Assembly (NCBI GenBank): GCA_036925085.1 | Contig: JAUPFP010000044.1 | Location: 930,001-994,000, forward strand | Reading direction: 5' to 3' | DNA length: 64,000 nucleotides | From: Brachycybe producta | Lineage: Eukaryota; Arthropoda; Diplopoda; Playtdesmida; Andrognathidae | Shown here: positions 339 to 64,000 of the stretch, piece after piece | Numbering within the stretch: position 1 is the first letter of the stretch | How the letters are laid out: each line of letters starts with the position of its first letter | Notes under the pieces: generated by a model | The model's database searches: none | What the model saw: only the letters and a program-made list of their open reading frames with translations | What the model was told of the DNA's origin: nothing | Made by a program: the position numbers and the translations under genes

Positions 339-3300
339 CAGCATGTATTCCAATAAGTATCCTTGCTACAATGATCATCTCGACTGAGGAAGCTGCATGA
401 GAACTTGTGAACAGTGCTGCTCCAATCAATCCCACAAAGTTGATCATCATAATCGATCCTTTTCTATAATACGAGAGACGAATGACAATTTAAAAAACGT
501 GTCACAATATGTGTCACTGTGTGTACCCTTTTGTGCCGTTCAGTATACGTAAACACGTTTGAAATTTAAGCAGCTGTTAAATTTTGGTAAACGTAAATTT
601 ACGTTTCACCGTTACTGGAGGCCACCACTCTAGGCCAATTTTTTACCCTCAGAAACACAACGAATAAGAATTGTGTTCTGTTTATGTTTCATGACAAAAG
701 TCTGATTACTAGTGATTAGTTTCTCCCATTTTTTTTTTACCTTCCAAATTTGTTCGAGAGTGAGCCAGCAGATATTGAACCAATCATTCCACCAATTAGA
801 AATGTGGAAACAACGACGGACCACAAAAGTTTCACTTGAGACTCAGATAGAACCAAATCATAGTTGGTGTACATTGTCTTGTTACAAAATTCCTGAATAA
901 TCTGTGGAATATTAAAAGGAAGTTATATATTTACACATTCAATTGTGAAATTGAATCCATTTTTGTAATGTAGACTATACTTGCCTCTTGAGGAGGATTT
1001 AAGACTCCAATGTTGTAACCGGTAGGAATCGCACCACTGATGATAGCTCCAACGAATGTCATCACTAACAACCATGTCATTCCGGGTTTATTCTTGAAAA
1101 CAAATAGAAACACATTAAGAAGTGCTTTGTTACTGGTTCCTTGATGCTCTTTGCAGCAGCCATTACAAAATATGAAAGTGAATCTGAATTGAATTATTCT
1201 GCATTCTTGCAACAACTTGAACTTCTTCTAGATGGTTCTGGTATTCTTCTTGTCTTTCTCAAGCAAAATGAAGAGCAACTGAGAAAGTGTTTTAGAAACT
1301 AGAAGGGTAGCTCAATCCTTTAAAGATATTTTCTTGTTGACATCTTTCAAAATACACTTTTTATAGTCCCAAAAATTAAAAAAAAAAACATGTCTGCTTA
1401 AAGTTGGATCATTTACACACTGACATAAAAAGCTGATTTTGACAGATGTCATCAACATAAAAAAAATACCATTAAGTGATAGAGTTATCCTTCTAGTTTC
1501 TAAAAGACGTTCAAATTTCATTTCATTTTTGCACGCTTCTCGAACTGTGATTAGTCTCGGTCTTTTCACCGAGACTAATCACAGTTCGCGAGGTATTTCT
1601 ACTTCAAAACCACCTTAAAGGTATTTTTATGATGATATCTTTCAAAATAAGCTTTTCATTTGAGTTTGAAAATGATATCCAACTTAAAACATATATGGTA
1701 TTGTTTTAAATTGTTTCTACAAAAAGCTTAAAATTTGAAATCAACATGAAAATACTCCTAATTGATTGAGCTACCCTTCTAGTCTCTAAAACACATTCAA
1801 GTATCTCTTTTAATTTCTTGGTTTTGTCTAATTTAGTTCAAAAACAATGTCTTGAGTGTTTTTCAGTATGAATCAGGGTTCGTGAATTTGGCTAAGTTCC
1901 TAATTTTTTTCTACACTATTTACGTAACTATTCAAATTTCTTGGGTTGGGGGGTTTTTTTTTGGAACAAGGAGAGAAAAGTGACATTTGACGGCGGCGGC
2001 GGATGTTTTAAAGAGTTTTTTCACCTCTTTTACATCAGGTTACAATACAACTACATGAAAATATTTTTGGCGAAATTTAAACTACAATATATAAATAGAA
2101 GTTCTTGTTTAGACGTCGTTTAAATAGACTTTTAGTCGTCATCATTATTTCGCGCGCTGATAACGTCCTCTCGAATTTGTATACAACTTCTTGGCGATGA
2201 GTTCAGGAAATGTCCAACTATAAACATGGCATAACTTAATGGCATCATCGTGTAATGCAAAGAAGTTATATTTCAGGCGGAGTTTTTTGTTGTTGTAATG
2301 TAAGTTGGAGAGGGCCTTTTTTTTTAGTTAGAACCAGTTTTAACTTGGTTAGAATTGGTTAGAGTTAGGGCTCGACTATGGTGGTTAGGTTAGGATGCAT
2401 TTGAAATTAATTTTAACTGAGCTAAATTATCAGTTTAAACTAGTTTTATTTCTAAATTCGGATTTTCAATGTATAACCATATATGCATTTTGTGATGATA
2501 GTTTTATAATTTCACATGCAATTTAAAGTATGTCCATATAATAAATAATAAATTTGTTTCAAACTAGATATTATGACATATTGTGAAGGCATTTTGAGCT
2601 ACAAAAAAATGCTATTGATTTTTTATTAATTAAATAATAGTTTATTTTATTATACTACAATTGTAATGAAATCTGTTAAATTTATCCTAAAAGAAGTAAA
2701 TGAACTTTTAAAAAGTGAAGGAGACGAAAAAGTCCAGTACATTGTTAATGTTTAAGTGTTATTCTAGTCACGTTAATAAAAGATGTACAGTGTGGGTAGA
2801 AAAACTAGTTCTCCATAAAATGCAACTAGATTTACTGATATTTCAAGAAAAAATAAGCATTAAGGGTGGATCCTCGAGTCTTGAAGTAAAAAAAAAAAAC
2901 TTCAAAATAATGATTGCTAAGTCCAAGCTAGTGCTACACTCATCAACTTGAAACTTCCTTTCAAACGTTCTTGAGTCCCCGCCTATTTTTGCCTATCAAT
3001 TATCAAGAATACGGTAATATTGCTTCGAAAACTGATACCTGGGAAAGGAGTTACGGTAGCGAAAAAAAAAAAAAAACTAAAAAAAAAACTTAAAAACTCT
3101 AACCTCTAACCAGCCTTTTTGATTAAAAAAAAGCATAGTTGCTCTTATGATGATTTATTACTTCACAATTGGCATTTGAGAAACAAAATTGGCAAACATT
3201 TGCTCGATATTTGCATAAAAATCCGAGCCCTATTAATAAATCAGCAATAAAACATTCAAGTTACTCTTCTAGTTTCTTAAATTTCTTCTCTTCTACTCTG

Positions 3301-7090: not shown

Positions 7091-7099
7091 GCAATTTAA

Positions 7100-8029: not shown

Positions 8030-8170
8030 CAGGCAATTGTGCCCAGCATTAGAATTTCTTTTACCCCGCCCTTTTATGACGTCACACCAAGTAACAAACC
8101 CAATTAAAAATTGATGACGTTCATAAAAGGGCGGAGCAAAAGAAATTCTAATGCTGGGCACAATTGCCTG
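8030..8170. mobile_element. Palindromic MITE, CAGGC family, copy 2
   Basis: A nearly perfect 141-bp palindrome bounded by CAGGCAATTGTGCCCAGC and its complement. The inner arms contain 'ccgcccttttatgacgt'. This is the most palindromic member of the family. Confidence 0.75.
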
Positions 8171-8522: not shown

Positions 8523-8542
8523 ACACACACACACACACGCAC
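8523..8542. repeat. (CA)n microsatellite
   Basis: A run of about nine CA units interrupted by one CG. Confidence 0.85.
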
Positions 8543-12046: not shown

Positions 12047-15000
12047 TGATGTTTACACTGTTGTTTTTCAGTTATGATCAATTAATTTGTACCGTACTTT
12101 AATAATATTTAATGTTTCATGAAGTCATGAAGAAAACAACAAATATGAGGCCTACACAATGTTGAAACATCCTCTCAGAATGACATCATGCCCAAAAGCA
12201 GCCGTTATCCTACATTGTTTTTCTTGACCTCTACCCCCTATTCTTTAACATAAACATTGGATACCTTCTATGGGAGAAGAAAAAAAAACACTTGTTGGTG
12301 AAAATTATGTGTTTTTATTTTGTAAATCACGTAGTAAAACAACAACAAAAAAGTTTCCACTGAACTTTTTACTTTTATTGAAGTAAATTGTTTATTGTAA
12401 ACAAAATATAAAAGAAAAACTGAAAAGAATTGGAACCAAATACAATAATTGTAATACAAAATGCTGAATAAGACAATCGAATTGCTGTGAAAGGCAATCA
12501 AATTGAAGTTAATTATAATTAAAGATAATGCCCTTATGATGGCCTCAAAACTACCTGTTAACACATGTAAAACATATGACAAGCTTTCTCTACTTGAGAG
12601 TTTATCTTGTTAATCAAAAATTATTGAGTCTTCAAATGATTAAAATTGCATTTCAAATACGAGAAAAGACATCTTTTGGATGATTTGTTATCAATTATAG
12701 AATTTATTACTAAGTCAAGTGTGAACAGAGACAGCTGTAAAAAAAAATGCAGATAAGGAATTTATGACAGCTGTGATTTAGGTGTCACCTTGGGTGCCTC
12801 TGCAGATACTGACAGGGAGGTGGTTTGCCTCTCCACCATTTTCAAAAGCCAAATTTCTTATTAATAATATGCTCGTATAATTTTTAAACACTCAATTATA
12901 TTCTGTCCATCCACTTACACAATTGTATTAAAACCAAATTTTGATTCTTTATTCTTGAACAAATTCTGAAAGTAGCCTACATTCAACACCGGAAACATGT
13001 TTTAGAAATTAGCATGTTGGCTATTTTCAGAATTTGTTCAAGAATAAAGAATCAAAATTTGGTTTTAATACAATTGTATAAGTGGATGGACAAGTTGGAC
13101 AGTTGTGCAAATGTATCAGTGGATTCACAGTATATTTGAGTGCTCATTGCAGTTTAAATTGTTTCAAAAATAACTGTAAGCAAAACAGAAGAATGTATTG
13201 TGTGGCTATACTAGGTATTGCATCATACTTGTCTCAGTCATGCTGATAGCTGATTTTATACACGAGCTACTAGATGGTGGTATGCCGTGTTAAGTCCTAT
13301 TCCTTCAATGAAGAAGAGAAACACTTGAATGACTGACTCCCCTATAAAATTTAGGTTTGGTGGCTCCAACAAGAGTTTCCAGTATAAGTGTTGGCCTCTG
13401 TTTCGAGGCCCACACTTACAGCTACTAACAACAGTAAACAACAAACAAAAAACCAGTTATTAAATGACGGCCATTTATTTTTTTTTGGTGTGAAAGAATG
13501 TAGATAAATGTGTTTGTTTTCATGTAACTTTTCTATTTGATATCACATATTCTATTCATCCAAGTATAATAAGAGTGTGTATTGAGACGTAATTTTCAAA
13601 CGTTTCAAAGAATAATTTATCTTAGGAAAAAAAAAATGAAAATGTAACAGTACTAGCATTCAGTTTTGTTTTTTAACCTTTTGACTGACCAATTTGGAAA
13701 ATTCCATGTTGTTTTCTCTCTCACACAACACATGTGTCTACACATATATTATCCACTTTATTCAATAATATAACTGTCAACAGAAGAAAACAAAAACTGT
13801 TGGTAGTTTACTACTATAATCTTTGATCATTTAATTAGTTTAAAAAATGAATTTGACAAAAGTCCATGGAAGTTGACATGAGTTTCAGAAGTTTTCAAAT
13901 ATAAGATAGCAATTTTCTCTTACATTTTCTCAAGTTAAATTTTGTGACACTTGTGAGAACATCGCAAATATAGTTTTAAAGTTAATAAAAAAATAATTAG
14001 ATTCGATCAATTAATTTTATAAAAAATGGTCATACTGACCTGGAAAATCATGGAAAAACATTAACAATCAGGAGAAATATTCATGTTTGTCTAAAAATCC
14101 TGGGAAAAAAAATCAGGACATTTATGAAAGGGAGGGTAATGCAAATAGCAAATGTATAAAAGTTAATAAAACTCTGTGACAAAATATTTGTAAATTAACA
14201 AAGTTAACAGCATTGACAATTTAAACTGGGAAAATAATGATGAGGTGGTTTTCTTTGCCTTCCTCATCGTAATATCGTAACGGTTAAATCAATGTGTGAT
14301 TGCCGCAAACCGTAACTTGTATTTTAACCATTTTGAAGGCGGCATATCCTTCAATCCAGTCCTGGTGGTTGGTTACTACTGTCATCCTCCACCCTTGTAT
14401 ATTGCTTATTCAATCTAATTAAAACTCACCGTTCCACAACATCATCATCAACGGGTTTCAGTAGTATTTCTTGGCCTAACCTTTTTTCAAGGGCTAGGCA
14501 CTACAGTGAGCACACCCTGCTTGCTAGTTCTACCGACTCTTGTCCGCGACTGCTTATTCGACGAGAAACTCGTTTATATTACAGCTAACCAATAGCCATA
14601 ATAGCAATTGTTCAGTTATGGTTGATACAATACTGACCAGCTTATGGAAAGTCAAGGAAATGGATTGTTTGATTTGGTTATGAACCATTGTTACCTTATT
14701 TACATATTTAAGTCAATGAAGATTTTAATTAGATTTTTTTTTAGAGATTTTTCTTCATTGTTGCCATTGGTTTTGACAAACTTTATTTAAAATATCAAAT
14801 TAAATTTCTGAAAATTTCATGAATTTATCATATTTTAATGTTTTTTCTTTAACTTTCAATAATAAGTATTTTGTTTTATATTCGTGCGAAATAAAATTTA
14901 AAAAATATATTAATATATATTTGAAAATTTTCATTTAAATAAAAACTTATTTAAAAATAGAAATCGAATTAAATCAAATAAATCGATTTTATTAGAAAAC

Positions 15001-46170: not shown

Positions 46171-46620
46171 CAGGGCCAGCTCAAGAGTTTCATGTGCCTT
46201 AGGCGAGACTTAAAATGTGCACCCCAGTTGTATTCTGTACCATCCGTCCGTCTGCCTATCCATCATCTTACCTATCAACATGCTAACTTATTTCCACCCA
46301 TTCATTCATCTATCTATCCTTTCTAAACCCCTTCAAACTCAAGTAAACTTTTATTTAGTCCGGCAGATTGGCGATCTATTATTTTTATTTTGCGTCGGCA
46401 AAATAAAAATAATAGATCGCCAATCTGCCGGACTAAATAAAAACAGTACTTGAGTTAAATTATTTATATACATGTATATCATAGGCCTAATCAATTTTAG
46501 TAAGAATTAAAGTTAGTAATCGTTTAATTTGTATATTTCTGTTTAAATTAAACACGAAAAAAATTACATTTTGTCAAATATTTTTGGACCTAAGTTCGCC
46601 TAAAGGATGGGCTGGCCCTG
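46171..46620. mobile_element. hAT-like MITE in the 3' flank of P7
   Basis: Ends CAGGGCCAGC and GCTGGCCCTG. The flanking octamers are tttgacat (46163-46170) and tgtgacat (46621-46628), with one mismatch. The P5, P6 and P9 flanks have the uninterrupted 'atgtctttgaca'. It is non-coding and contains a large palindrome. Confidence 0.8.
46336..46456. repeat. Palindrome inside the P7 hAT-like MITE
   Basis: The arms 46349-46393 and 46398-46442 are essentially perfect, with looser symmetry out to 46336 and 46456. The P8 copy of the MITE keeps only the right-arm sequence. Confidence 0.85.
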
Positions 46621-46650
46621 TGTGACATTATCTTGTAATACGATTTTTCA

Positions 46651-49600
46651 CTAGTTGTGTAACTGACGCTGTTTTACCATCAAACTGAATGGTGGTGGAC
46701 GAACTGTTGAACCCATTATTGGGTCGATGCTTGGAAGGTTTTCATTTGGTGCACAATGGAAAGCGAAACGGTGCAATAAATTGCTGAAAAAGAGAAATAG
46801 TTGCATTTTGGCCAAAGCTTCTCCTATGCATACTCTTGCACCTATTATTGAAATACACAGTAAAAACAGATAATATAATTTCGAATATTTGTTTCATTTT
46901 CTTTCTTTAACAGTCTAGACACTTCAGAGTTGAACGTGCTGTGAGACGTGATCAATTTGGGGGTTCCCGAGTTGCACAAATGGCTCCTGGAACCAAACGG
47001 CAATTGGAAACGTTACGAAAATACCTCTTTACCTGAAGAACATATTAAGGAATACGCACATTTTTTTTAAAGCTGAAAGATGTTCCTGAAGAACAAAAGG
47101 TAATTTATGAAGCTAGTGGACCATTTTGAAGTTAATGACCTTTAACATGGGTCGCGAGCAAATTAGCACAATCAAAAGGGTGTAAATTTACAACCAAAAG
47201 ACTTTAAAACCTTGCCACACCATTCAAGAAGCAATTGCAGCTTCAATTATTGCCCAAAACTCACTTTGAAGAGAGATATGTTGTTAAGAGGCGAAATCAT
47301 GTTTTTCGACAAATCAGTTTTCTCTTGACATTGCGCCATTGGTGTCGTTCAGCACGTCCATGCTAGAGTGTCTATATAAGCTTACCAAATGCTTACCAAT
47401 AGAAAATGGGATTAAATATTCTGGCTTCTTGACTTTTCCATTTTCGCTCAAAAATCGTTCTGGTCTGAAGGCATCTGGATCATCCCAATAGTCTTTGTCA
47501 TGGTGAACAGCCCACAGATTTGGGGCCACAAATGTTCCTTTAGGTATTGTGTATCCCATTACTTCGGTTGTATCAATAGTTGTACGGGGAGGCGATAAAG
47601 GTAGGACCGAAGCAAAACGATGTATCTCGAATATGGTGGCCTCGGTGTAAGGCAAACTGTTTGGTTTTAAAGAGGTTAATTGGTGATGTGTTCTATCTTG
47701 CAAGCATGCATCTTTCACGATGATTCGGGGTGGGGGAACTATACCATCTCATCACAAGGTGGGACGTGGAGGCTAGCTTCATATTAGAGTACCGACGCTG
47801 TCGAGATGTTGAGATGGAAGTATAATAAGAGTTGGAGGTGGAGGCTGCCAATGCTTGTAGTTGATGGAATTGGAATATTTTGGCAAGTGGCGGATGTTAC
47901 AAGCACACTCGGTACTCTAATACTGTATAATTTCTTAATAGCTAGCCTTCACCTCCAACCCTTTGTCATTGGCATTGTCTTTGTGATTGGCTACACTCTA
48001 ATTCAGTGATTACACTGATTAGGTTGTTTGCAATGATGTTTCATAATGCACAATTATTGATTTCTCACTGTATGCGGTCAGCATAATTTACATATCGATG
48101 TCCTCCTATCACTGAATCCAGTTCTTCATGTATTTTATTTTGAACTTCCGGCCAATATACCATGTAGAGTATACCAAACTCTAAGGTGTTTTGAGTCGTT
48201 TCCACTCCAGCTAGGAACATATCATAAAGTGTACCTACAAGGTGTTTCACTGTCATTATACAAAGAGAAAATATTTTGTACTATATAATATTCTATCAAA
48301 TTCAATTCGTTATCGTTATACGTGGCTCGTACTTTGATATGGGGAATCCTCTTCTTCCGATCCTTCTCTCTTGTACATTTCTGCCAAATAGTCGTCGATG
48401 AAATCTCGAGGAATTCCATCTTTATACGTTTTCACGTGGTTATCGATCTCCTCTTTTATGTAATCTATTATTTTATTGTTGCTCTCCAGAAACAGTGCCA
48501 TGTGAGAATTCCATGGACCAGGTATATATCTCAGAATTGGGAAGAAATTTACAACACCAAGCATTGAAGTATCCTCAAAGACATTACTTGCATATTCTGT
48601 AATTTGTTTCATTTTAGGATCTTTTGTGTCAAATCTGTTTCCTGTTCAAAATGAATTATTTCATAATTAGGTAGATCTATATTTTCAAGTCCTGTCAAAG
48701 GATGTATTTTGAGATTGTTGAACAACAGTGCATTTCTTTTGCTTTGGTGGGACACCCACATATTTAGACCCATTTTAAAGGCAGAAACTTGCTACTGGAA
48801 CTTGTATCCTCTGAAACAGGGTTTCAACATACAAATATCTTGTTTTATTTAGTATTCGTGAACCGAGTTTTTTATGTTGAAAAGGCGTTTCGAGGGTTTA
48901 AGTTGAAGTTCAAGTGAAATTGTGCCAAGTTTTCATTTTAATATGGTTTTAAATTGTAAACTCTTCTCAAAATCTGGTTATTCTGTCTTTCATGAACAAA
49001 AAAATTAACAAAAACATGAGTGTTTTAAAAACTAAAAGGATATTTCAATCACGTACGGGATTTCGTGTTGGTTTAATTATGTTTTTTATGTCTGTTTGAA
49101 AATTACCCAACTTTAAACAGACATTTTTTAATTACTGTCTGTATGAAGTTTATTTTGAAATATTCCAAATAAAAATACCTGGGGCCCGTTTCACCAAAGT
49201 TTCAAAATAACAAATGAAAATAACAAACATTTTTTCAACCAGTCTCAGAGTTGGGTAACGTTTTTGAGCTTCAATATTTTAGTGTTGTTTAAAATTATAA
49301 TGTGGAACTTTTCGTCTGACGATGAATTAATTATTCATATTACTTATATTACACCGTCACCGAAGACCTCGAAGATTTATGATGAGGATAAATTTCGAGT
49401 TGTCATATAAAATTGTAACTATTTATTCACAGTTTTAACTACTGTATTTATTCACAAGTGTAAAAAAAATGTCATGAAACTTGATGAAACACCTGTACTT
49501 GTAGACTTGTTGTTGCTAGCACGGGGGATCTACATTAGGGTTAATTGGGCCAGGGCCCCAAATTTTTAGCGGGCTCCAAGACACAATTCAATTCAACTCA

Positions 49601-51852
49601 GTACACCTGCAATCAGCTCAAAAGCTATGTGACAGGGTGGGATTGCTCCCGATCACAACTGTTTGTCATTCAGGTAAAACAAGACATGATTGTTAAATTG
49701 AAATCGTCCTAACAAAGAACTATCAACTGGAAGAGAATTCCTTGGTCTAATAACATTTTGGGAAAAAAAGACCAAAAGTATGCATCAGTTCTAGCCATTA
49801 ATTCGTTTTAAAGTTTTTGAATGGCCGTGCCTTCGTTTACGAGGATTTATATTTAATAAGTCATTAATTAGGGCAATATTATCATCTGTCAGTAAATGTT
49901 CGAAAAGGGCAAGGCTTTGGTCATTTCTTTGGCCTGCTAATGATTCCCATTTTAGTTCCTGAAGCATAGAAGATACACTGTCAGCATACACTATACATGT
50001 ATCTTCCTTTCACAAATCTTGCAAACCTATACGTTGTACCATTTCTATTTCGTGCTAATTCTAAATGCTTCTATAACTAAACACTTCTATCGTGTAGTTA
50101 TTTAAAGAGATATTAGCCTGAAAATAGTAACTACAATATCTTAAAAAATTAAAACTGTATATTTTTACTGTATGTTATAAACAGCATTTATAAATTTTAT
50201 TGAATTTTCTTAAAAAGGGTCCCAGAGGCCCCAGGGCTCCCAAAAAGCTAGATCCGCCCCTAGTTGCCAGTACCTGTAACTGTGAAATTATGACTTTGTG
50301 ACTTTTGTGAAACGGACCCAAGGTGAATAAACATTTTGTCATAAATCTAATTTAAGTTACTAAAGAGTAGGCCTACTTTATGAAATTTTAAATAATAACA
50401 AAAAACTGATTTAAATAAAAAAAAAAATCCGATTTAAACTTTTTAAAATTTAAAATTTAAAATTTTGACTTTTATTAAAAAAGGAATCATGATTTTATCT
50501 CTCCTAATATACACTACAAAGTAGTACAAAATTATTATTATGCATACTTTTTCAAAAATAGGTTTAAATTTAAGGAATGTTGTGGTACAAATTGAGTTGT
50601 AACTGTTTTAGAACACATTGCCTTCATTACGTTGTATAATCTTACCAGACATACTGCTCCATATTATATTTATTAGCGGTATGAAGTATGATTTGGAAAT
50701 AGGAATAACGTTATTGCTTATCTCCGTTATGTGTTCCATAAGAGTTCGAACTTCATTAAATATAATATTTTCGAATTGAATCCTTCCAATGCCAAGTTTT
50801 CGCATTTCTTGCAAAGTGAATCTTCGTTGTTCTTTCCACCTTGGTCCATCTGATGCAAATATATCTGATTCATAAAAATCAAATAAAAACATCAGTTTAT
50901 TTACACGTTCGGGAGAGGTTCAATTTGGCTAAGATTAAAACATTACAGAGCTTAAACTAAAAATCTGAATTAAGGTAGCAGAATAGATATTTATATTGTT
51001 TATGTCTTCCCGGGTGGCACCACTGCTGTGGTTAATGCTAAGCTCCATAGATGTTTTGGGAACATTTGGACACAAACGTCAATGAAACGTTTTTTTTAAA
51101 CAACATTACGAAAAAAATTCAAATTGTTATCAAAACTAGAATGGTAGAAAATTATGCTAAAAGTTTTTTCATTGAAATATCTTAAAAAATAAACATTTTC
51201 TAGCAATTTGAAAATGACTCGTTTTCAGGTGTTTTTTTTTTTTCTTTCGGATATTGCAAACTGTCATAAAACGAAAAAATACTTTTAGCATTATAACCAA
51301 CTATTCTAGTTTCTAAAATGCTTTGAATTTTTTGTAATATTTTTTTCTCGGAAAACTTTCGCTTGAAAAACATAAATTTTCTCAAAACCACGGGTGGGTG
51401 GAAGAGACCTCCTATAGAACATTATGGGTCACTACAGTGTCACCCTTCTGGAGGATAATAACAATAAATATCTATTTATAACCACCTTAATTAGTATAGC
51501 CATGATTTTGTTTACCGTCATAATGCGTCATTTGTTCAAACTTGTATAGTTTTGGTCGTCCGGAAAATATTGTCGATTTCGCCACAAGACATTCCTTGAT
51601 GGCTGTCCAATCATTGAGAACGATTACATTTGTACTTCCAATTGGAATGCTCATTATACTTCCATATTTTTTAGATAATTTTGCAAACTGTTTGTATGGA
51701 TGGTTTTTATCAAGAAATGGAATGAAACCAAGAAATGGTAATCCTTTAGGTCCTGGTGGAAGATTGGGGATTTGTTTATCTTTTGATCTCCAGAAGATGT
51801 ACAGCAAAAATATCAGAATCAAAAACAACGAAAATTGAATGAACCAATACAT
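46651..51852 (-). CDS. P7: CYP2-clan cytochrome P450, intact
   Basis: Exons are 51852-51516, 50864-50646, 48641-48333, 48249-48069, 47656-47397 and 46841-46651. They splice to 1497 nt and 498 aa. Start MYWFIQFSLF with anchor, hinge LPPGPKGLPFLG, WKEQR, I helix AGVETT, EIHR, FRPERF, haem loop FSIGARVCIG, tail MVKQRQLHN. The ExxR motif reads EIHR, which still satisfies it. Two local departures from the siblings are DFIDDYL for DFIDVYL in exon 3 and KMQLF for KMELF just after the haem loop. Exon 6 is short and contains no early Met, but it is open to its TAG. Intron 2 is the longest of the array because a retroelement-bearing insertion sits inside its MITE. Confidence 0.92.
47757..47960. mobile_element. 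Intron-4 foldback element, P7 copy (uninterrupted)
   Basis: A compact copy of about 200 bp with inverted ends ('acgtggaggctagc', 'attagagtaccga' and their inverse). It serves as the reference form for the interrupted copies in P5, P6 and P8. Confidence 0.65.
49178..50323. mobile_element. Intron-2 MITE, P7 copy, with nested insertion
   Basis: The left end CCTGGGGCCCGTTTCACC and a degenerate right end (GTGAAACGGACCCAAGG) are separated by an extra insertion of about 760 bp. Confidence 0.7.
49513..50268 (-). mobile_element. Nested insertion with a LINE-like reverse transcriptase scrap
   Basis: The outer ends look inverted ('gctagcacgggggatcta' against the complement of 'tagatccgcccctag', followed by GGGCC-rich blocks), suggesting a DNA-transposon shell. 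Inside, minus strand 49991-49791, a 66-codon frame reads SMLQELKWESLAGQRND and later LINDLLNINPRKRR. It resembles the C-terminal end of non-LTR retrotransposon reverse transcriptases. The exact boundaries are approximate. Confidence 0.5.
50974..51486. mobile_element. Intron-1 MITE, P7 copy
   Basis: TTAA at 50970-50973 and 51487-51490 bounds termini GGTAGCAGAATAG and CCACC. The inner blocks are shared with P5 and P6. Confidence 0.65.
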
Positions 51853-52745
51853 TTTAATTGCAAAACTAGAAATAAATATTTGGAAAATAAAATAAACACT
51901 TTTCAGCTTGTTTATTTGTCATTCAGTACAGCCTTCATGTTGAGGCTATATTTTTAATTGATATACAAGCATTAAAAAAATAAGGGAGACTTGAATAGAA
52001 TATAGAGGTAGCTCAACTTAGAATTCTACCTTAAGCGATGAGTGCGTTCACTTCCTATAGGCTGCGTTCAGACTACTCGTACTCGAGCTGGGTGAGGGGG
52101 CACGTCAACAAGCCCAAGTAATGTGGACGGACTCACGAGCAGCGATACAAGTAGCACGAGTAACGCGAGCCAGAGGCTCGTCTGGCTCTGCTTGATGTCA
52201 GTACATTAAAGAGGTGGACGGGGGACGAGCACAGTTTCGTTGACTTAAAGTGACTCAAATGAGCACCACGACCAAAAAAGAAGTGCCTCTTAACTGAACT
52301 CACCCATTGTTTCCACTAAGACACATAAGTCTGAGTGGAAACGTGCTTTAAGATGCTTTGCTTACCATAGCTGAGTTTCGCCAGTGGATGGCGCCACTTG
52401 TACTTAAGAGCTAATTTTTTTAGATACAAGATTCAATAAACATACAGAATATAAGAGAATCTTGAAGAGAGGTTATACAATTAATACTGTATCCAGTAGC
52501 GCGAACAGGAATATGGTCGGGTAGGGGGGGGGGCTAATTAAATATTAAATAAGTACTTAATATCTCCGAGGGGGGAATCTGAAGAGCCAAGGGATGGGTG
52601 TAAGTCCTGGGGTAAGTCCTTCAGACTCCTTAGCTGAGTTAGCTCTTCCTCGCCCCGTGGTTGCGCTACTGACTCTATCACTCACGACGTTTTTTACATG
52701 TACAGTGTACAGTATTTATTTCAGTTTGAATGATGTCTTTGACAT
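51853..52745. other. Intergenic between P8 and P7
   Basis: Paralogous to 45226-46170, including the 'ggctgcgttcagactactcg' repeat at 52060. A G run is at about 52522. No gene is recognised. Confidence 0.5.
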
Positions 52746-53132
52746 CAGGGCCAGCACAAGGGTTTCATTGTGGCTTAGGCGAGACTTAAAATGTGCACCC
52801 CAGTTGTATTCTGTACCATCCATCCGTCTGCCTATCCATCACCCTACCTATAAACAAGCTTACTTCTTCCCACCCATTCAACTGTCTATCCATTCTAAAC
52901 CCCAGAATAAAAACAATAGGTCGCCAATCTGCAGGACAAAATAAATACATAGTACTTGAGGTAAATTATTTATATACATGTATAAGTGTATATCATAGGC
53001 CTAATCAATTTTAGTAAGAATTAAAATTAGTAATCGTTTAATTTATATATTTCTGTTTAAATTAAACACGAAAAAAATTACATTTTGTTAAAATGCGCCC
53101 TAGTGGAACGCCTAATGGACGGGTTGGCCTTG
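52746..53132. mobile_element. hAT-like MITE in the 3' flank of P8
   Basis: Ends CAGGGCCAGC and a degenerate GTTGGCCTTG. It lies at the same site, with the same octamers (tttgacat at 52738-52745, tgtgacat at 53133-53140), as the P7 copy, so it is one insertion inherited by both. Confidence 0.78.
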
Positions 53133-53163
53133 TGTGACATTATCGAGTAATACGATTTTTCAC

Positions 53164-56100
53164 CTAGTTGTGTAACTGACGCTGTTTTACCATCAAACTG
53201 AATGGTGGTGCTCGAAATGTTGAACCCATTATTGGGTCGATGCTTGGAAGGTTTTCATTTGGTGCACAATGGAAAGAGAAACGGTGCATTAAATTGCTGA
53301 AAAAGAGAAATAGTTCCATTTTGGCCAAAGCTTTTCCCATGCATACTCTTGCACCTATTATTGAAATACACAGTAAAAACAGATAATATAATTTTGAATA
53401 TTTGTTTCATTTTCTTTCTTTAACAGTCTAGACACTTCAGAGGTGAACGTGCTGTGTGAGACGTGGTCAATTTGGTGGTTCCCGAGTTGCACAAATGGCT
53501 CCTGGAACCAAACGGCAATTGGAAACGTTACGAAACTACCTCCTTACCTGATGAACATGTTAAGGAATACGCACAATTTTTTTAAAGCTGAAAGATGTTC
53601 CTGAAGAACAAAAGGTAATTTACAAAGCTAGTGGACGATTTTGAAGTTAATGACCTTTAACATGGGTCGCGAGCAAATTAGCATAATTCAAAAAGGTGTA
53701 AATTTACAACCAAAAGACTTTAAAACCTAATTGCCCCACCATTCATGAAGCGATTGCAGCTTTAATTATTGCCCAAAACTCACTTTGAAGAAAGATTTGT
53801 TTTTAGAATTGAAATCATGTTTTTCGACACATCAATTTACACTTAACATTGTGTCATTGACGTCGTTCAGCACGTGCATGCTAGAGTGCCTATATAAGCT
53901 TACCAAATGCTTACCAATAGAAAATGGGATTAAATATTCTGGTTTCTTGATTTTTCCATTTTCGCTCAAAAATCGTTCTGGTCTGAAGGCATCTGGATCA
54001 TCCCAATAGTCTTTGTCATGGTGAATCGCCCACAGATTGGAGGTGACAAACATTCCTTTAGGTATCGTGTATCCCATTACTTCGGTTGTAACTAGAGGTG
54101 TACGGGGAGGCGAAAAAGGTAGGACCGAGGCAAAACGCTGTATCTCCAATAGGGTGGCCTCGGTGTAAGGCAAACTGTTTGGTTTAAAAGACGTTAATTG
54201 ATAATGTGTACAAGAATGCATCTCCCACAACAATATGAGGCGTGGGAGCTGTACCATCTCATCTCAAGGTTGGAGGTGGAGGCCAGCTGCATATTAGCAG
54301 GGCCATGCAGTAGATTTCCTCAGTATGATGCAAGTCTTCGAAATGCCGCCCCTTAAATGTTACTTTTTAATTCGAGTCCCTATTGTCATAACAATCATTT
54401 TCAATGATAATAAGTAACTACAATTGCTGTAAAAAACAATAATTCTCTTACCTGATCTACTTTTTAAACACAAAAACTGAATTAGTATAAATGCAAAAAT
54501 ATTATACTGATACAGATATATTATATATCTGATTTACTAATTTAAACACAGCACAGCCACTTGCCACTTCTCAAGACAAACTAACATAAAAATCAAATAT
54601 TGTCAATAATTGTAAGCTCAAAGCAGAACTATCAACACGTAACACGTGCAGTTGTCTTTTGTGATAATTGTAGCCTCAGCTTTTAGGAGCGGCCGCGCGG
54701 TATATTACAAACAAAAATAGTAGCTTCGTGCTGTCAGATCAAAAGTCTTTCGGGGAGCACTCGCCAACGATGCACCTGCACCAGAAACCAAAATCAAAGG
54801 GTACCGAAAGTGCTTACGCAGAGGCAAGCAATAAATCATAAATCGTATACATCAATATCGGAATAACATAGACCAATATAGAAAATTGTTGCATAAAGAT
54901 TTTTAATTATTGAATGGTTCAAATCGTATTTTGATTTTGCTGCTTATGCCACCCCCTTACGGTGCCGCCTGATGCGGCCGCCTCTCTGTATCATAGCACG
55001 GCACGGCCCTTCATATTAGAGTACTGAGGCTATCGAGATGTGGAGATTGAAGTATAATACGAGGAATATTTGGGATGTGGGATGTTTGGCAGTGTCGGAT
55101 GTTATGATCGTAATATGGTCTCAAGCACACTCCGTACTCGAATGTAATCTCTTAATAGCTAGACTTCACCTCCAACCATTTGTCGTTGTGTCTGATTGGG
55201 TACAGCCTAATTCAGGTTTAATTTAGGTTGTTTGCAATGATATTTCATAATGCACAATTATTTATTTCTTACTGTATGCGGTCAGCATAATTTATATATC
55301 GATGTTCTCCTATAACTGTGTCCAATTCTTCGTGTATTTTATTTTGAACTTCCGGCCAATGTACCATGTAGAGTATACCAAACTCTAAGGTGTTTTGAGT
55401 TGTTTCCACTCCAGCTAGGAACATATCATAAACAGTACCTACAAGGTGTTTCACTGACATTATGCAAAGAAAATATTTTGTATTTATAATATTCTATCAA
55501 ATTCAGTTGGTTATCGTTATACGAGCCTCGTACTTTGATATGCGGAGTCCTTTTCTTCCGATCCGTCTCTCTTGTAAATTTCTGCCAAATAGACGTCGAT
55601 GAAATCTCGAGGAACTCCATTTTCATACGTTTTCACGTGGTTATCGATCTCTTCTTTTATGTAATCTATTATTTTCTTGTTGCTCTCCAGAAACCGTGAC
55701 ATGTTAGAATTCCATGGACCAGGTATATATCTCAGAAATGGGAAGAAATTTAAAGCACCAAACACCGCAGAATCCTCAAAGATATTACTTATATATTCTG
55801 TAAATTTGGTCAGCTTGGGATCTTTTGTGTCAAATCTGTTTCCTGTTCAAAATGATATGAATACTTTTTGCAAAAATATTTTTAAATTTAAGCGACGTTG
55901 TGGTAGAAATTGAATTGTAACTGTTTTAGAACATTGTCTTTATTACGTTGTATAATCTTACCAGACGTACTGTTCCATATCACATTCATTATAGGTGTAA
56001 AGCATAATTTGGAAATAGGAATAACGTTATTGCTAATCTCCGTTATGTGTTCTGTAAGTGTTCCAACTTCGTTAAGTATAACATCTTCGAATTGAATCCT

Positions 56101-57143
56101 TCCAATGCCAAGTTTTCGCATTTCTTGCAAAGCGAATCTTCGTTGTTCTTTCCACCTTGGTCCCTCTGATGTAAATATATCTGATTCATAAAAATCAAAA
56201 AAAAAACTTCAGTTTATTTACACGTTCGGGTGAGCTTCAAATTCCTTCATTTTGGCTAAGATTAAAACATTAATGAGCATTAGCTAACAAATCTGAATTA
56301 AGGTGGCAGAATAGATATTTTTATCGTTTATGTCTTCCCGGGTGGCACCACTGCTGTGGCTAATGCTAAGCTCCATAGATATTTTAGGAAAATTTGGGAA
56401 AATGTTTTTTTAAAAACATTACGAAAAAAATTCAAATTGTTATCAAAACTAGAATGGTAGAAAATTATGCTAAAAGTTTTTTCAAAGCAATATCTTAAAA
56501 AATAAACAATTTTATAGTTCAGTTTCATGAGAAAAAAAAAACTATTTTCGCCTTTTTCCACAAACTATTATAAAAAGTTTCTTTTGAAAAATGTCAACAT
56601 GATAAATACGTTTAGCATTATCACCAACTATTCTAGTTTCTAAAATGATTTGAATTTTTTTGGAATGTTTTTTTTTCATGGAAAACTTTCGCTTGAAAAA
56701 CATAAATTTTCTCAAAACCACGGGTGCGTGGAAGAGACCCCCTATAGAACATTATGGTTAATACAGTGGGACCGTTCTTAAGGAATGTGGCCATGATTTT
56801 GCTTACCGTCAAAATGCATCATTTGTTCATACTTGTGTAGTTTTGGTCGTCCGGAAAATATTGTCGATTTCGCCACAAGACATTCCTTGATGGCTGTCCA
56901 ATCATTTAGAACGATTAGATTTATACTTCCAATTGGAATGCTCATTATGCTTCCATATTTATTAGATAATTTTGCAAACTGTTTGTATGGATGGTTTTTA
57001 TCAAGAAATGGAATGAAACCAAGAAATGGAAATCCTTTAGGTCCTGGTGGAAAATTAGGAATTTGTTTCTCTTTTGATCTCCAGAAAATGTACAGCAAAA
57101 ATATCAGAATCAAAAACAACGAAAATTGAATGAACCAATACAT
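53164..57143 (-). CDS. P8: CYP2-clan cytochrome P450, intact, short intron 2
   Basis: Exons are 57143-56807, 56180-55962, 55842-55534, 55453-55273, 54174-53915 and 53354-53164. They splice to 1497 nt and 498 aa. Features are the start MYWFIQFSLF, anchor, hinge FPPGPKGFPFLG, WKEQR, I helix AGVETT, EIQR, FRPERF, and haem loop FSIGARVCMG followed by KALAKMELF (siblings have EALAK). Exon 2 begins DIFTSEGPRW where siblings have SDGPRW. Intron 2 is only 119 bp, against 1.1-2.0 kb in P5, P6, P7 and P9, so it has lost the MITE and most of the intron. Intron 4 carries the foldback element split by a 714-bp hAT-like insertion. The gene shares the 3'-flank MITE with P7. Confidence 0.92.
54266..55177. 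mobile_element. Intron-4 foldback element, P8 copy (interrupted)
   Basis: Inverted ends as in P7 ('ggttggaggtggagg' and 'cacctccaacc'). A hAT-like element splits its left arm. Confidence 0.6.
54298..55011. mobile_element. hAT-like insertion in P8 intron 4
   Basis: It begins CAGGGCCATGC and ends GCACGGCACGGCCCT plus T. An exact 8-bp duplication CATATTAG flanks it (54290-54297 and 55012-55019). P7 and P9 show the single-copy site. There is no transposase coding sequence. A NotI-like GCGGCCGC is at about 54690, and another GCGGCCGC is near 54973. Confidence 0.8.
56302..56777. mobile_element. Intron-1 MITE, P8 copy
   Basis: TTAA at 56298-56301 and 56778-56781. The right terminal part is shortened relative to P7, and the outer inverted repeat is lost on that side. 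Confidence 0.55.
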
Positions 57144-59484
57144 TTTAATTACAAAACTAGAAATGCGTGTTTAGAAAATAAAATAAACACTTTTCAGCGT
57201 ATTTTTTTTGTCATTCAGTATAGCCTTGACGGTGAGGCTATATTTTTAATTGATATATAGAGGCATTTAAAAAAAATAAGGGAGACTTAGAGAGAAACTG
57301 ATTCCAGATTCTGAAAGCGCTCACTTGGTTCTTACCAATAAACAAAAAATTACGTTTGAACGGCTGATAGTTTTCTTTCTGAGACGATATTTTTTAACGT
57401 TATAATGGAATTATTACAGTTAGCATACTCAACAATCGTAGAGCAACAACGAACATTAAGCTATACATTCAATTCATTTTCGAGCAGGTCATTGCGAGCG
57501 GCTTCAAACGAGCACCACGAGCAAAAAAGAAGTGCTTATTAATGGAACGCGCACCCATTGTTTCCACTAAGGAACATAAGTCTGAGTGGAAACGTGTCTT
57601 AAGGAGTTTTGCTTATCACTTCTACTTAAGAGCTAAATTTCTTTTCAGATACACCAAGATACTGGCAATTAGAACTCGGGACGAACAGAAGTTGGCTCCG
57701 CCCTTTTTATGACGAACGCAACTTCTAATTGGTTGGTTATGTAGTCTGACGTCACATGCTCCGCCCTTTTCAACGTTCCCGGTCGTCATAAAAAGAGCGG
57801 AGCCAACTTGTGTTCGTCCCGATTTCTAAATGCCTGTTCTATCCAGTAGGAGCAACGAGGAAGATGGATTTGGGGGCTAATTAAATATTAAATAAGTATT
57901 TAATATCTTCAAGGGGGAGAATCTGAAGGGCCAAACTGGGGGGGGGGGGGGGGTTGTAAGTCCTAGGATATTCAAACCCCTTAGCTGAGTTAGTTCTCTC
58001 GCCCCATAGTTGTGCTACTGGCTCTGTCACTCACAACGTTTTTACATTTACAGTGTACAATATTTATTTCAGTTTGAATTAATGCAAGAAATGTTGGCTT
58101 TGACATCGACCTTATCAGATATTGAATTAGTGATATCACTAATTGGGAGTATTTTTGACATGAACTGCCCCTCATACTTGCAAGGCCAACTAGATCGTGC
58201 AGTGATAACAGTTACTCATGGCGTTTCAAGGACGTGCAGTAATGCATGGAGCGCCATGACTAAAGAGGCACCAAAAAGGGTGAAAATTGTTTTACTCCCT
58301 ATTTGCAATTTCTTATTGTACATTCTTTTTTTTTTAATTTTTAAAGAGGAAAAAGGCTAATTATGGTTTAGAAAATTAAAATTACTATAGTTAAGTTTGC
58401 ATTTTTAGTAGGTGTTCCACAATTTCGTTATATGCTTAAAATGAAGCATATGCTATTCCTAATGAAAATCAAGCAAATGCTACCATTTGGTATGAATAAA
58501 AAGTTGAATAAAAGTGAATACTTCAGTCTTCAAGTAAAAACTTTGCTTTTACTTCTACTTTTAAGTACCATGTTAGTATTTACTTTTAGCAAATTACTAA
58601 ATGCATTACATACAGTTTACGAATAAAAAAAGTAAATACTTTAGTTTTATAGCAAATACTTTAGAATATTCAAATTGCTAATTGTCTAGATATTGGCACT
58701 GTCTAGGTAACCTTTTTTTTTTTAAAAAAGAAATTAAAATTATTCCAATTATGTAGATTGGCAAAAAAAAGTGCGTAAAACAAAAATCTACTTAGTTTTT
58801 TTTTTAATCAGTTTTGTATTTTTGAACTGAACGCCCACAATGCCTCGAAACAGCAGTGTCCATTCAACGTTTTAAAATAAGAATAAATAATATATAACAT
58901 ATATATATAACATTTATTAACATTTTTATTAACAATTTATGAGGAACAAAAAAGGTGTTATGTTTTTAAATAAATCATTAGTGTTTTAGTTCCTAAACAT
59001 TCTGATTACATGCATCTGGGGAAGTTGATGTTTAATTCATAGTAGTTAATATTTAGGCTTTTTGTGCCACCTGGCACCTTACAACAACAACTTTTAAGAT
59101 TATTGTGTCGTTATTTTTTCTGGAAAAAATGTATAACTTTAATCTTGTGACGTCAAAGAGATTGACAAAAAAAAGTCTACGATTGTTTCATATAGAAAAG
59201 AGATGATATCCAACGTTCTCAACATTTTAAACAAAAGGGCTCTTGTTACATTCTTTTGTTATTACTATTTTTATAAGACAAAATGGCACAAGCTTTAATT
59301 TTTTGTCAACCCCTTTGACGTCACAAGTTTAATGCAAAAACAAACATTTTATTGTGTGTGCGAATCTCAGCGTTATTAGATAGACAGTAGGTGCAATTGC
59401 ATATTATGTACCAATAACTGGACAATTTACCATTATTGCAAGAAATTCCAATGTCTTTGACATTATCGAATGATACGATTTCGC
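57144..59484. other. Intergenic between P9 and P8
   Basis: Left part (57240-58100) resembles the P7/P8 flanks and includes an 18-base G run near 57937. From about 58170 it changes to the flank type also found between P5 and P4 (31550-33800). A minus-strand AATAAA for P9 is at 59348-59353. No gene. Confidence 0.5.
57662..57836. mobile_element. Palindromic MITE, CAGGC-TTAG family, copy 4
   Basis: The right end is the complement of CAGGCATTTAGAAATCGGG. The left end has one change (CTGGCAATTAG). The inner 'ggctccgcccttttta' arms match copies 1 and 3. Confidence 0.7.
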
Positions 59485-62400
59485 CTAGTTGTGTAACTGA
59501 CGCTGTTTTACCATCAAACTGAATGGTTGTGCTTCAAATGTTGAACCCAATATTGGGTCGATGCTTGGAAGGTTTTCATTTGGTGCACAATGGAAAGAGA
59601 AACGGTGCATTAAATTGCTGAAAAAGAGAAATAGTTCCATTTTGGCCAAAGCTTCTCCTATGCATACTCTTGAACCTATTTTCGAAATACACAGTAAAAA
59701 CAGATAATATAATTTTTAATATGTGTTCCATTTTCTTTCTTTAATAGTCTAGACACTTCAGAGTTGAACGTGCTGTGAGACAATTGGAAACGTTACGAAA
59801 CTACCTCTTTACCTGAAGAACATATTAAGGAATACGCACAATTTTTTTAAAGCTGAAAGATGTTCCTGAAGAACAAAAGGTAATTTGCAAACCTAGTGGA
59901 CCATTTTGAAGTTAATGAACTTTAACATGGGTCGCAAGCAAGTTAGCATAATTGAAAAGGGTGTAAAATGGCGTTGAAAATTTACAACGAAAAGACTAAA
60001 ACCTTGCCACACCATTCTAAAAGCGATTGCAGCTGCAATTATTGTCCAAAATTCCCTTTGAAGAGAGATTTGTTGTTAAGAGTCGATATCATGTTTTTCG
60101 ATACATCAATTTTCACTTAACATTGCGCCATTTCCGCCGTGCATCACGTGCATACTGAAGTGTCTATACAATGCGTTTAATGCTTACTTACCAACAGAAA
60201 ACGGGATTACATATTCTGGTTTCTTGACTTTTCCATTTTCGCTCAAATATCGTTCTGGTCTGAAGGCATCTGGATCATCCCAATAGTCTTTTTCATGGTG
60301 AACTGCCCATGTATTGTGGCTCACTAACGTTCCTTTAGGTATCGTGTAACCCATTACTTCGGTTGTAACAACAGGTGTACGGGGAGGCGATAAAGGGAAG
60401 ATCGTGGCCAAACGCTGTATCTCCAATATGGCGGCCTCGGTGTAAGGCAAACTGTTTGGTTTTAAAGCTTAATTGTTGTGTTCTATCTTGCAAGCATCAT
60501 CTTTCACGACGATACGAGCTGGGGGAGCTGTGCCATCTCATCTTATGGTTGGAGGTGGAGGCTAGCTACATATTTGAGTACCGAGACTGTCAAGATGCTG
60601 AAATGGAAGTATAATAAGAGTTGGATGTGGAGGCTGCCAATGCTTGTAGTTGATGGGATTGGAATATTTTGGAAAGTGGCGGATGTTACAAGCACACTCG
60701 GTATTCTAATGTAATCTCTTAATAGTTAGCCTTCACCTCCAGTCCTCGTCGTCGTGTGCGATTGTGTACAGCCTAATTCAGTGATTAGGATGTTTGCAAA
60801 TGATGTTTCATAATGCACATATATTTATTTCTTACTGTATGTGGTCAGCATAATTTATATATCGCTGTCCTCCTATAACTGTGTCCAGTTCTTTGTGTAT
60901 TTTATTTTGAACTTCTGGCCAATGTACCATGTAGAGCATACCAAACTCTAAGGTGTTTTGAGTTGTTCCCACTCCAGCTAAGAACATATCAAAAAGTGTA
61001 CCTACAAGGTGTTTCACTGACATTATACAAAGAGAAAATATTTTGTATTATATAATATTCTATCAATTTCAGCTGGTTATCGTTATACGAGCCTTGTACT
61101 TTGATATGCGGAGTCCTTTTCTTCCGATCCTTCTCTCTTGTACATTTCTGCCAAATAGACGTCGATGAAATCTCGAGGAATTCCATTTGTATACGTTTTC
61201 ATGTGGTTATCGATCTCCTCTTTTATGTAATCTATTATTTTCTTGTTGCTCTCCAGAAACCGTGACATGTGAGAATTCCATGGGCCAGGTATATATCTCA
61301 GAATTGGGAAGAAATTTACAGCACCAAGTGTTGCGGAATCCCCAAAGACATTACTTACATGTTCTGCGAATTTCGTCATCTTGGGATCTTTTGTATCAAA
61401 TCTGTTTCCTGTTCAAAATGAATTATTTCCTAATTAGGTAGATCTATATTTTCAAGTCCTGTCAAAGGATGTATTTTGAAATTGTTGAACAACAGTGCAT
61501 TTCTTTTGCTTTGGTGGGACACCCACATATTTAGACCCATTTTAAAGGCAGAAACTTGCCACTGGAACTTGTATCCTCTGAAACAGGGTTTCAACATACA
61601 AATATCTTGTTTTATTTAGTATTCGTGAACCGAGTTTTTTATGTTGAAAAGGCGTTTTGAGGGTTTAAGGTGAAGTTCAAGTGAAATTGTACCAGGTTTT
61701 CATTTTAAGATGGTTTCAAATTGTAGACACTTTTCAAAGTCTGGTTATTCTGTCTTTCACGACTAAAAGATTCTTCAACTAAAAGGTTATTTCAATCACT
61801 TACGGGATTTCGTGTTGATTTCTTTTAAATTATGCTTTTTATGTCTATTTGAAAGTTACCCAACTTTAAACAGGCCATTTTAATTATTGTTTGTATGAAG
61901 TTTATTTTGAAATATTCCAACTGAAAATACCTGGGACCCGTTTCAAGAAAGTTGCAAATTAACAAATGGAAATCACAAACATTTTTTTCACCCAGTGGAA
62001 ACTCTTCGTCTGACGATGAATTAATTACTCATATAGCCACACAGTCAAAGACCTCGAAGATTTATGGTGAGGATAAATTTTAAGTTTGTCACATAAACTT
62101 GTAACTGTTTATTTACAGTTGTAATTATTTATTCACAAGTGTCAAAAAAAAGGTCATGAAACTTTATGAAACACCTGTACTTGTAAGTGTGAAATTGTGG
62201 TCTTGTGACTTGTAACTTTTGTGAAACGGGCCCCAGGTGAATAAACATTTTGTCAGAAATGGAATTTCAGTTAATAAAAACGAGTAATTTTATGAAATTT
62301 TAAATAAAAAACTAATTTAAATAAAAAAAAATCCGATTTAAATCAAATAAATCTAATTTTTTTGATTTTTTTAAAAAAAATAATGATTTTATCTCTCCTA

Positions 62401-63801
62401 ATATACACTACACACTACACACTGTACACAGTTGTACAAAATTATTATTATGGATACTTTTTCAAAAATAGGTTTAAATTTAAGGAATGTTGTGGTACAA
62501 ATTGAATTGCAGCTTGTTTTAGAACATTGTCTTTATTATGTTGTATAATCTTACCAGACATACTGATCCATATTATATTCAATATCGGTATAAAGCATAA
62601 TGTGGAAATACGAATAACGTTATTGCTGATCTCCGTTATGTGTTCCATAAGAGTTCGAACTTCATTAAATATAACATCTTCGAATTGAATCTTTCCAATG
62701 CCAAGTTTTCGCATTTCTTGCAAAGCGAATCTTCGTTGTTCTTTCCACCTTGGTCCATCTGATGTAAATATATCTGATTCATAAAAATCAAATAAGATGA
62801 GCTTAAATTTGGCTAAGATTAAAACGTTACAGAGTATTAGCTAAAGGTAACAGAATACGTATTTATTTTCTGTAGGTATCCGGGGGGGGGGGGGGAGTAC
62901 CACTGCAGTGGCTAATGCTAAGTTCTATAGAGGTTTTGGGAAAATGTGGACACAAACATTGCAATGCATCAAGCAGCACTTGGTCTCTCGTCCATTGGCC
63001 AACCAGTTGCTTGCAGAGTATTTTTTTGTAATTGTAATTGTAAAAACGTCAATCGAACGTTTTTTTTTTAAATGCTAAAAGTTTTTTAAGGCAATATCTT
63101 AAAAAATAAACATTTTCTAGCAATTTGAAAATGACTCGTTTTTAGGTTTTTTTTTTCTTCGGATATTGCAAACTGTCATAAAACGTTTATTTTAAAGATA
63201 TCACATCACGAAAAAAAAAACTTTTATCACTATCACCTACTATTCTAGTTTCTAAAACACTTTGAATTTTTTTGTTTGATTCTTTTTTTTTTTTTTTTTG
63301 TTTTCTTCTGAAAAACTTTCGCTTGAAAAAGATAAATTTTCTAAAAACCACGGGTGGGTGGAATTGACCTCTTATAGAACATTATGGCACCATTCTGGAG
63401 GATAATAACAAAATAATTATCTATTTATAGCCACTTTAATTAGTGTGGCCATGATTTTGCTTACCGTCAAAATGCGTTATTTGTTCAAGCTTGTATAGTT
63501 TTGGTCGTCCGCAAAATATTGTCGATTTCGCCACAAAACATTCCTTGATGGCTGTCCAATCATTGAGAACGACTACGTTTGTACTTCCAATTGGAATGCT
63601 CATTATACTTCCATATTTTTTAGATAATTCTGCAAACTGTTTGTATGGACGGTTTTTATCAAGAAATGGAATGAAACCAAGAAATGGTAATCCTTTAGGT
63701 CCTGGTGGAAGATTGGAAATTTGTTTATTTTTTGATCTCCAGAAGATGTACAGGAAAAATATCAGAATCAAAAACAATGAAAATTGAATGAACCAATACA
63801 T
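59485..63801 (-). CDS. P9: CYP2-clan P450 with altered I-helix motif
   Basis: Exons are 63801-63465, 62773-62555, 61408-61100, 61016-60836, 60451-60192 and 59675-59485. They splice to 1497 nt and 498 aa. The start is the Met of MYWFIQFSLF; an in-frame Met four codons upstream (63813) also exists. Anchor, hinge LPPGPKGLPFLG, WKEQR, EIQR, FRPERY and haem loop FSVGSRVCIG with Cys440 are present. The I helix reads AGVGTT (302-307): the conserved acid is Gly here (GGA), where P5-P8 have Glu (GAA). The PERF Phe is Tyr. Exon 1 has IFCGRP for IFSGRP. The frame is open and all splice sites are intact, so it is annotated as a gene, but its monooxygenase activity may be weakened or changed. Confidence 0.9.
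60547..60742. mobile_element. Intron-4 foldback element, P9 copy (uninterrupted)
   Basis: A compact copy like P7's: 'ttggaggtggaggctagct' on the left, and 'gcacactcggtattctaatg' then 'cttcacctcca' on the right. Confidence 0.65.
61930..62237. mobile_element. Intron-2 MITE, P9 copy
   Basis: Left end CCTGGGACCCGTTTCAAG, right end GTGAAACGGGCCCCAGG. It is closest to the P6 copy. Confidence 0.65.
62845..63435. mobile_element. Intron-1 MITE, P9 copy
   Basis: The left end is degenerate (AGGTAACAGAATA). The right TTAA is at 63436-63439. It contains a 15-base G run near 62882 and a long T run near 63285. Confidence 0.55.
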
Positions 63802-64000
63802 TTTAATTTTCAAAACTAAAAATGCGTATTTGAAAAATAAAATAAAAACTTGTAGCTTCTTTTGTTGTCATTCAATGACCTAACCTGTGATATTTACATG
63901 GTTAAATACTTCGAACAGTATTGTTATCAATACTGTTCGAAGTATTTAACCATGTGATTTATTTAACCACTTGATAAGCTAATGGGCGCCTTCATGTTGA
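63802..64000. other. 5' flank of P9 at the window edge
   Basis: Matches the P6 upstream flank (45010-45180), including 'cttgataagctaatggg', apart from the hairpin at 63896-63955. Confidence 0.6.
63896..63955. repeat. Perfect hairpin, 28-bp arms, upstream of P9
   Basis: The arms 63896-63923 and 63928-63955 are exact complements around TTAT. The P6 flank (about 45112-45133) has one arm only ('gttaaatacttcgaacagta'). Confidence 0.9.

Follow-up and report, generated by a model that had tools for sequence, protein, structure and literature searches.

The analysed window, C44:930001-994000, is 64 kb long and comes from a genome of 295 Mb comprising 442 contigs; positions without a contig name refer to this window. 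It falls within a tandem cytochrome P450 array, which runs past the window end to approximately C44:1001500. Pfam P450 matches were observed in five of the ten open stretches scanned; the other five had no match. With the fetched flanks, 264 kb were covered in total.

A centre-based scan (arms scoring at least 14, spacer up to about 60) revealed 15 short-spacer inverted repeats in the window and none in each of five dinucleotide shuffles (Table 1). All nine sites listed in the original prediction are among them, with position offsets of at most about 7 bases. The remaining six are of other kinds. No Rfam family matched the window at the gathering threshold, and known RNA genes were rejected as the identity of the hairpins.

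Table 1. Array units and inverted repeats of the window (window positions; fractions are matching positions between arms).
Position	Feature	Arms	Spacer	Remarks
15692-22964 and 23173-29679	two tandem units			main blocks about 92% identical; used as paralog pair
33537..64000	at least five related array units			P450 frames on the minus strand
1541..1588	hairpin inside a dispersed repeat	21 nt, perfect	6 nt	left arm is the new one
12904..13092	palindrome, member of a dispersed palindromic element	79 nt, 96%	31 nt	
19197..19359	hairpin	67 nt (65/67)	29 nt, first part forward	left arm ancestral
25488..25538	hairpin	23 nt (22/23)	5 nt	paralog near 18000
29415..29519	hairpin	49 nt (47/49)	7 nt, inverted	left arm ancestral
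33247..33357	hairpin (33251)	53 nt (47/53)	5 nt, inverted	right arm ancestral
45158..45225	complex hairpin: two forward units, then an inverted one	20-nt outer arms, perfect		
46336..46456	hairpin	45-nt core arms, perfect, plus 10-nt outer arms	4 nt	right arm ancestral
63896..63955	hairpin	28 nt, perfect	4 nt	left arm ancestral
3362, 8027, 11900	inverted repeats within repeated elements			
10438	satellite-like inverted repeat			
20836, 39805	inverted repeats			short, AT-rich

The region 10436-11120 is a satellite-like array of short units occurring in both orientations side by side. The element at 8027-8173 has 53-nt inverted ends starting with TCACAGGCAATT. It is present in five copies in the 264 kb (the others are at C44:833210, 865406, 913923 and 1059362) and by its look represents a family of the MITE type.

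The original prediction stated that the array paralogs of six hairpins have one arm or none. For five of them this was confirmed. All three array copies holding the 63896 arm (at 38.9 kb, 45.1 kb and C44:1001110) are single-armed and continue without interruption at the point at which the second arm and a 13-nt filler stand in the hairpin copy; three further array units have no arm sequence at that place. The 45158 site is single-armed in five of five array copies. The right arm of 46336 occurs without its partner in the neighbouring unit (52903-52945) and in four unlinked copies, L033-L036 (5/5 in all), and the left arm of 29415 stands alone in the array paralog at 22961-22998 and in the unlinked copies L037-L039. 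The only paralog available for 19197, at 26632-26780, has one arm, broken by approximately 57 nt. The sixth case, 25488, is weak: its sole paralog matches one arm at 16 of 23 positions, fails the score rule used below, and looks like a degenerate quasi-palindrome.

Of three further sites, 1541 and 12904 had been described as having no paralog to compare, and 33251 as lying inside a transposase remnant; each of the three does have relatives, in the form of dispersed copies. The 33251 hairpin lies within an element which we, following the original prediction, take to be a transposase remnant, and which had no match in Pfam. By the score rule, six of seven other copies of this element contain the right arm only; the remaining one is truncated. 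Here the event is the clearest to read by eye: the spacer corresponds exactly, in reverse complement, to the five bases that adjoin the ancestral arm in most copies. The host element is flanked by inverted ends of 123 nt at 94% identity (32832-33540). One of its copies, L028 (C21:2087222-2087668), carries at 242-312 an inverted copy of its own, with 15-nt perfect arms and a 41-nt spacer, itself largely reversed.

Relatives of the 1541 site have no left arm in the alignments, yet only one of five is single-armed by the score rule, because the repeat has diverged. One relative, L064 (C1:21277790-21278010), has its own hairpin at the same place, and the inserted arm is common to L064 and its tandem copy L066. 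This second hairpin may have arisen independently at a hot spot or be old and shared. Shared ancestry and independent events are both possible, and L064 was not accepted as proof of a hairpin subfamily at this site. The 12904 palindrome is not a clean single-arm case, as its relatives L031 and L032 are palindromic themselves. Its right arm was apparently re-copied from the left one, and a remnant of the original right end of the element is retained just after the right arm. In total, hairpin-free relatives among array or dispersed copies were found for eight of the nine sites, six clearly and two (1541 and 25488) weakly.

The original prediction proposed that the process is local. This was not upheld, since similar hairpins occur at about two per 100 kb in other sampled stretches. 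Strict hairpins (arms of at least 20 nt, identity at least 94%, spacer up to 15 nt, no microsatellites) number six in the 64-kb window, four in 200 kb of flank and two in 75 kb from fifteen scattered stretches. The density outside the window is 2.2 per 100 kb, which extrapolates to some 6,400 strict hairpins in the genome, a very rough figure resting on six hairpins. The enrichment in the window (one-sided p 0.015) is not pressed, the window having been picked for its hairpins.

Four of the six outside hairpins also have relatives without the second arm. At both C44:917125 and C44:1050953, all twelve aligned repeat copies have no adjacent second arm. By the score rule, two of nine copies are single-armed at the former and six of nine at the latter; the low count at C44:917125 is due to the repeat's own inverted ends, which confuse the rule. 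Nine of the twelve aligned relatives were used in each of these counts, the omitted ones aligning badly or having no arm region. In the scattered sample, by the same rule, three of four relatives are one-armed at L055:4806 and one of three at L046:1929. The whole-genome search yielded no usable relative for C44:886646. Finally, C44:839954 (C44:839554-840615) is a 525-nt inverted pair with a 12-nt spacer and a single copy at C44:906274-906799. Its arms match each other at 506 of 525 positions, whereas one arm matches the single copy at 519 of 525 (98.9%), and thus the single copy may be secondary.

Over the 12 events, the fixed score rule classes 37 of 56 event/relative pairs as single-armed (C44:839954, one of one, was left out). 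Seven of the 19 misses are at C44:917125 and four at the diverged 1541 repeat. The direction of the event is resolved by several relatives at 63896, 46336, 33251, 29415, 45158, C44:1050953 and L055:4806; at 19197 and 25488 there is a single relative each, and the resolution is weak at 1541, C44:917125 and L046:1929. In 10 of the 12 events the two arms have more matching bases with each other than the arm has with its best relative, with ties at 33251 and 45158. Most of the hairpins thus postdate the duplications. This comparison says little at 19197, whose paralog is 98% identical over the outer 45 nt, and at 1541 it rests on short local matches.

The length differences between array paralogs were analysed separately. 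Among 61 differences of 20-400 nt in seven chosen pairs, gains and losses taken together, five are local inverted copies, none is a local direct copy, and 56 are neither. On this count, direct tandem duplication was rejected as a frequent cause of such differences. Two of the 56 rows failed the length rule with inverted scores (20 for 45178, 22 for 63918) that were well over the shuffle maxima of 11.5, as did the direct score of row 45178 (15.0 against a maximum of 11.5). The entries 63875 and 63918 represent one hairpin, and the 29415 hairpin was missed.

In the alignments, the inserted segment reads as the reverse complement of a stretch no more than tens of bases away. We fitted four switch points to each event/relative pair and compared the result with a one-direction alignment in which long gaps are cheap. 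The four-point model was better in all 37 pairs of the final fit, with margins from 1.8 to 51, which supports the original prediction that a process resembling template switching turns a single arm into a hairpin. The comparison is one of scores rather than of formal probabilities. Since the switch model is the more flexible one and is restrained by nothing but a fixed jump cost, the smallest margins, 1.8 (L046/L060), 5.5 (25488) and 6.3 (45158/w38.9), mean little. Six pairs fitted earlier are outside the 37 (46336/L034-, 45158/w63.9, C44:1050953/+960797, in place of which +968168 was fitted, 25488/-1020999, 1541/L064 and L055/L058). Of these, 45158/w63.9 favoured the one-direction alignment, and the switch model scored better in the other five. 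The pair 63896/d1001 was an exception in the first fit and favoured the switch model once the flank had been lengthened. The truncated copy 33251/L029 and the pair 46336/L035 were outside the four-point fit. Each of the events at 45158 and 63896 needs more than one switch. For the best-scoring relative of each of the 12 events, the copied length is 22-80 nt, with a median of 53.

The orientation of the spacer was assessed by disallowing any template position ahead of the primer and measuring the loss of score. The loss was at least 3 at 33251 (5/6 relatives), 29415 (3/4), 1541 (3/4), C44:917125 (3/3) and C44:1050953 (1/3). It was between 2 and 2.5 at 63896 (3/3), 46336 (1/3), 25488 (1/1) and 45158 (1/3), and zero at 19197 (1/1), L055:4806 (3/3) and L046:1929 (3/3). 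Thus template ahead of the primer, that is, an inverted spacer, is clear in five of the 12 events, weak in four and unneeded in three. In the fits showing it, the template reaches approximately 3-13 nt ahead of the primer. In simulated events at 10% and 3% divergence, the gain for forward spacers never exceeded 1.0 (60 runs), and for inverted spacers it was at least 3 in 37 of 60 runs. Several of the relatives are diverged by 15-25%, more than in the simulation, and thus the switch points are uncertain by some bases; at 29415, two relatives gave a solution different from that of the third.

Judging from these alignments and fits, the hairpins are most probably traces of short template-switch events. 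A growing DNA strand would stop, and its 3' end would move to a nearby strand of the opposite sense, copy some tens of bases backwards and then rejoin the original template close to the point of exit. The switch may occur at the replication fork, between the leading and lagging templates, and the backward copy may end where the single-stranded template runs out. A reversed spacer means that the template lay beyond the primer end, which is impossible for a strand folding on itself, and thus a switch between the leading and lagging templates is preferred for the inverted-spacer events. The argument that such a template cannot be the same nascent strand follows the logic set out in PMC7954356. 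The opposite parental strand could be that template, as it would be only a few bases away at a fork, and we infer that a switch at the fork fits better than repair by end folding. The minority with forward spacers (19197, L055:4806) may result from strand fold-back or from repair of the polymerase theta type. A real alternative is that the inverted spacer does not date from the first event: later switching between existing arms can flip it, as described in PMC8604942 and in the MIR633 section of PMC8794818.

The fork switch has to be weighed against break repair by polymerase theta, in which a resected 3' end folds back, copies its own strand and is then joined to the other end; the product is an inverted templated insertion next to the source. 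Such insertions are known and, according to the account in PMC11292364, are the most frequent product in Drosophila. The forward spacers at 19197 and L055:4806 fit this mechanism, L046:1929 is compatible with it, and the loss of flank at C44:917125 fits a break. However, a self-folding end requires template behind the primer and a forward spacer, whereas five resolved events are clearly better explained by template ahead of it and four more weakly so. Moreover, the copied lengths of 22-80 nt appear long for insertions of the theta type. On balance, theta repair is unlikely. Much less probable is an origin of the hairpins as copies of a dispersed element of the foldback or MITE type, although this is true for 12904, with its palindromic relatives L031 and L032, and for the repeats at 8027, 3362 and 11900. 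A genome-wide search in which all candidates were scored and very common words were skipped yielded no second full hairpin for 19197, 46336, 29415, C44:886646 or 1541, and none was found for 33251 among the 40 of 88 candidates that were scored; 45158, 63896 and 25488 were compared within the 264 kb. The possibility, raised in the original prediction, that each hairpin copies a dispersed family was thus retained for 12904 and found unsupported for the six hairpins searched genome-wide, with no support from the aligned relatives either.

Slightly less probable still is that the hairpins are ancestral and the single arms are products of deletion. Palindromes are readily lost by deletion, the comparison at 19197 and at 25488 is with a single paralog each, and C44:839954 is compatible with this scenario. 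On the other hand, the second arm is missing in several relatives (3/3 at 63896, 5/5 at 46336, 6/7 at 33251). The arms being closer to each other than to any relative in 10 of the 12 events argues against both deletion and a dispersed element. The least probable explanation is an artefact of assembly, amplification or sequencing, which the original prediction listed as the alternative. The arms are perfect at 1541, 45158, 46336 and 63896, and for these young hairpins the evidence comes from one assembly. However, the arms at 33251, 29415 and 19197 (Table 1) and at C44:1050953 (37/39) have accumulated mutations, which indicates age. Further, the inserted arm and spacer are common to a pair of tandem copies at C1:21277430-21278010, which means inheritance through duplication; 10 nt were lost from the other arm in one copy, and L066 no longer scores as a hairpin. 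Artefactual chimaeras would rarely rejoin the original template within tens of bases.

Template switching is established as a source of hairpins (PMC8794818, PMC7954356, PMC13334657, PMC8755829, PMC11292364, PMC10766186, PMC13155455, PMC8604942, PMC4689423). The events inferred here are closest in form to the four-point template-switch mutations reported in great apes and in RNA hairpins (PMC7954356, PMC8794818), with the same adjacent reverse-complement copy, near-perfect hairpin, single-arm relatives and four switch points. However, in the ape data of PMC7954356 the copy has a median of 12 nt and a maximum of 128, compared with a median of 53 here, where the scan selects long ones. The clearer fits have the switch orders 1-3-4-2 or 3-1-2-4 and their near neighbours, with the spacer inverted, whereas the majority in the same ape data are 1-4-3-2 and 3-2-1-4. 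One such insertion in insect rRNA genes is described in PMC8794818. No genome-wide survey of template-switch mutations in insects or other invertebrates was found in the literature searched, which is a weak negative.

Other known systems share some of these features. The small inverted triplications associated with FEN1/Rad27, for which PMC13334657 proposes replication errors at Okazaki ends, likewise consist of short inverted copies with short spacers. In that account they have the structure direct-inverted-direct, with medians of 148, 160 and 148 bp and a spacer of 30 bp, whereas the events considered here usually have two arms and, in the strict set, spacers of 0-12 nt; the exception is 45158, with two forward units and one inverted. 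The same leading-to-lagging strand switch at a fork is proposed for ODIRA (PMC10766186; PMC4689423). However, ODIRA as described in PMC10766186 starts from short inverted repeats that are already present and gives rise to large amplicons, whereas here tens of bases are copied and no long ancestral inverted repeat was seen in most events. Microinversions, as presented in PMC8755829, are also short reversed segments flanked by inverted repeats, but their repeats pre-exist and only the segment flips, whereas in the present events one repeat of the pair has newly arisen. The class of event is thus a known one, and what appears notable is the density of the set within a single genome, its polarisation by paralogs and its leaning towards long copies and inverted spacers.

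Tandem arrays and dispersed repeats provide natural before/after pairs, and a kind of mutation usually inferred from comparison between species can be dissected within one genome. If the inversion of spacers holds genome-wide, it would be a simple sequence test distinguishing fork strand-crossing from end-folding repair. New near-perfect hairpins also arise beside genes: the distance to an open frame of the P450 array is 29 nt for the 63896 hairpin and 66 nt for the 29415 hairpin. It is possible, although this suggestion is tentative, that strand-crossing template switching is unusually active in this lineage, running 20-80 nt backward, reversing the few bases between the strands and continually adding near-perfect hairpins by the thousand. 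If so, this would be a distinct mutational signature, with length and switch order unlike those in apes, and would steadily provide hairpins as raw material for fragile sites and small RNAs.

Several other inverted structures were observed. Just past the window end, C44:999711-999973 contains identical 120-nt arms with a 23-nt spacer, within an inverted region of about 630 nt. Two array units contain a wider-spaced inverted copy, at 33709-33743 and 59273-59332; the latter is possibly common with the 33.7-kb unit and inherited by both. Finally, L058 (C21:2974380-2974640), fetched as a relative of another hairpin, has at 180-261 a hairpin of its own with 33-nt arms and a 16-nt spacer, which is absent from the other three aligned copies.
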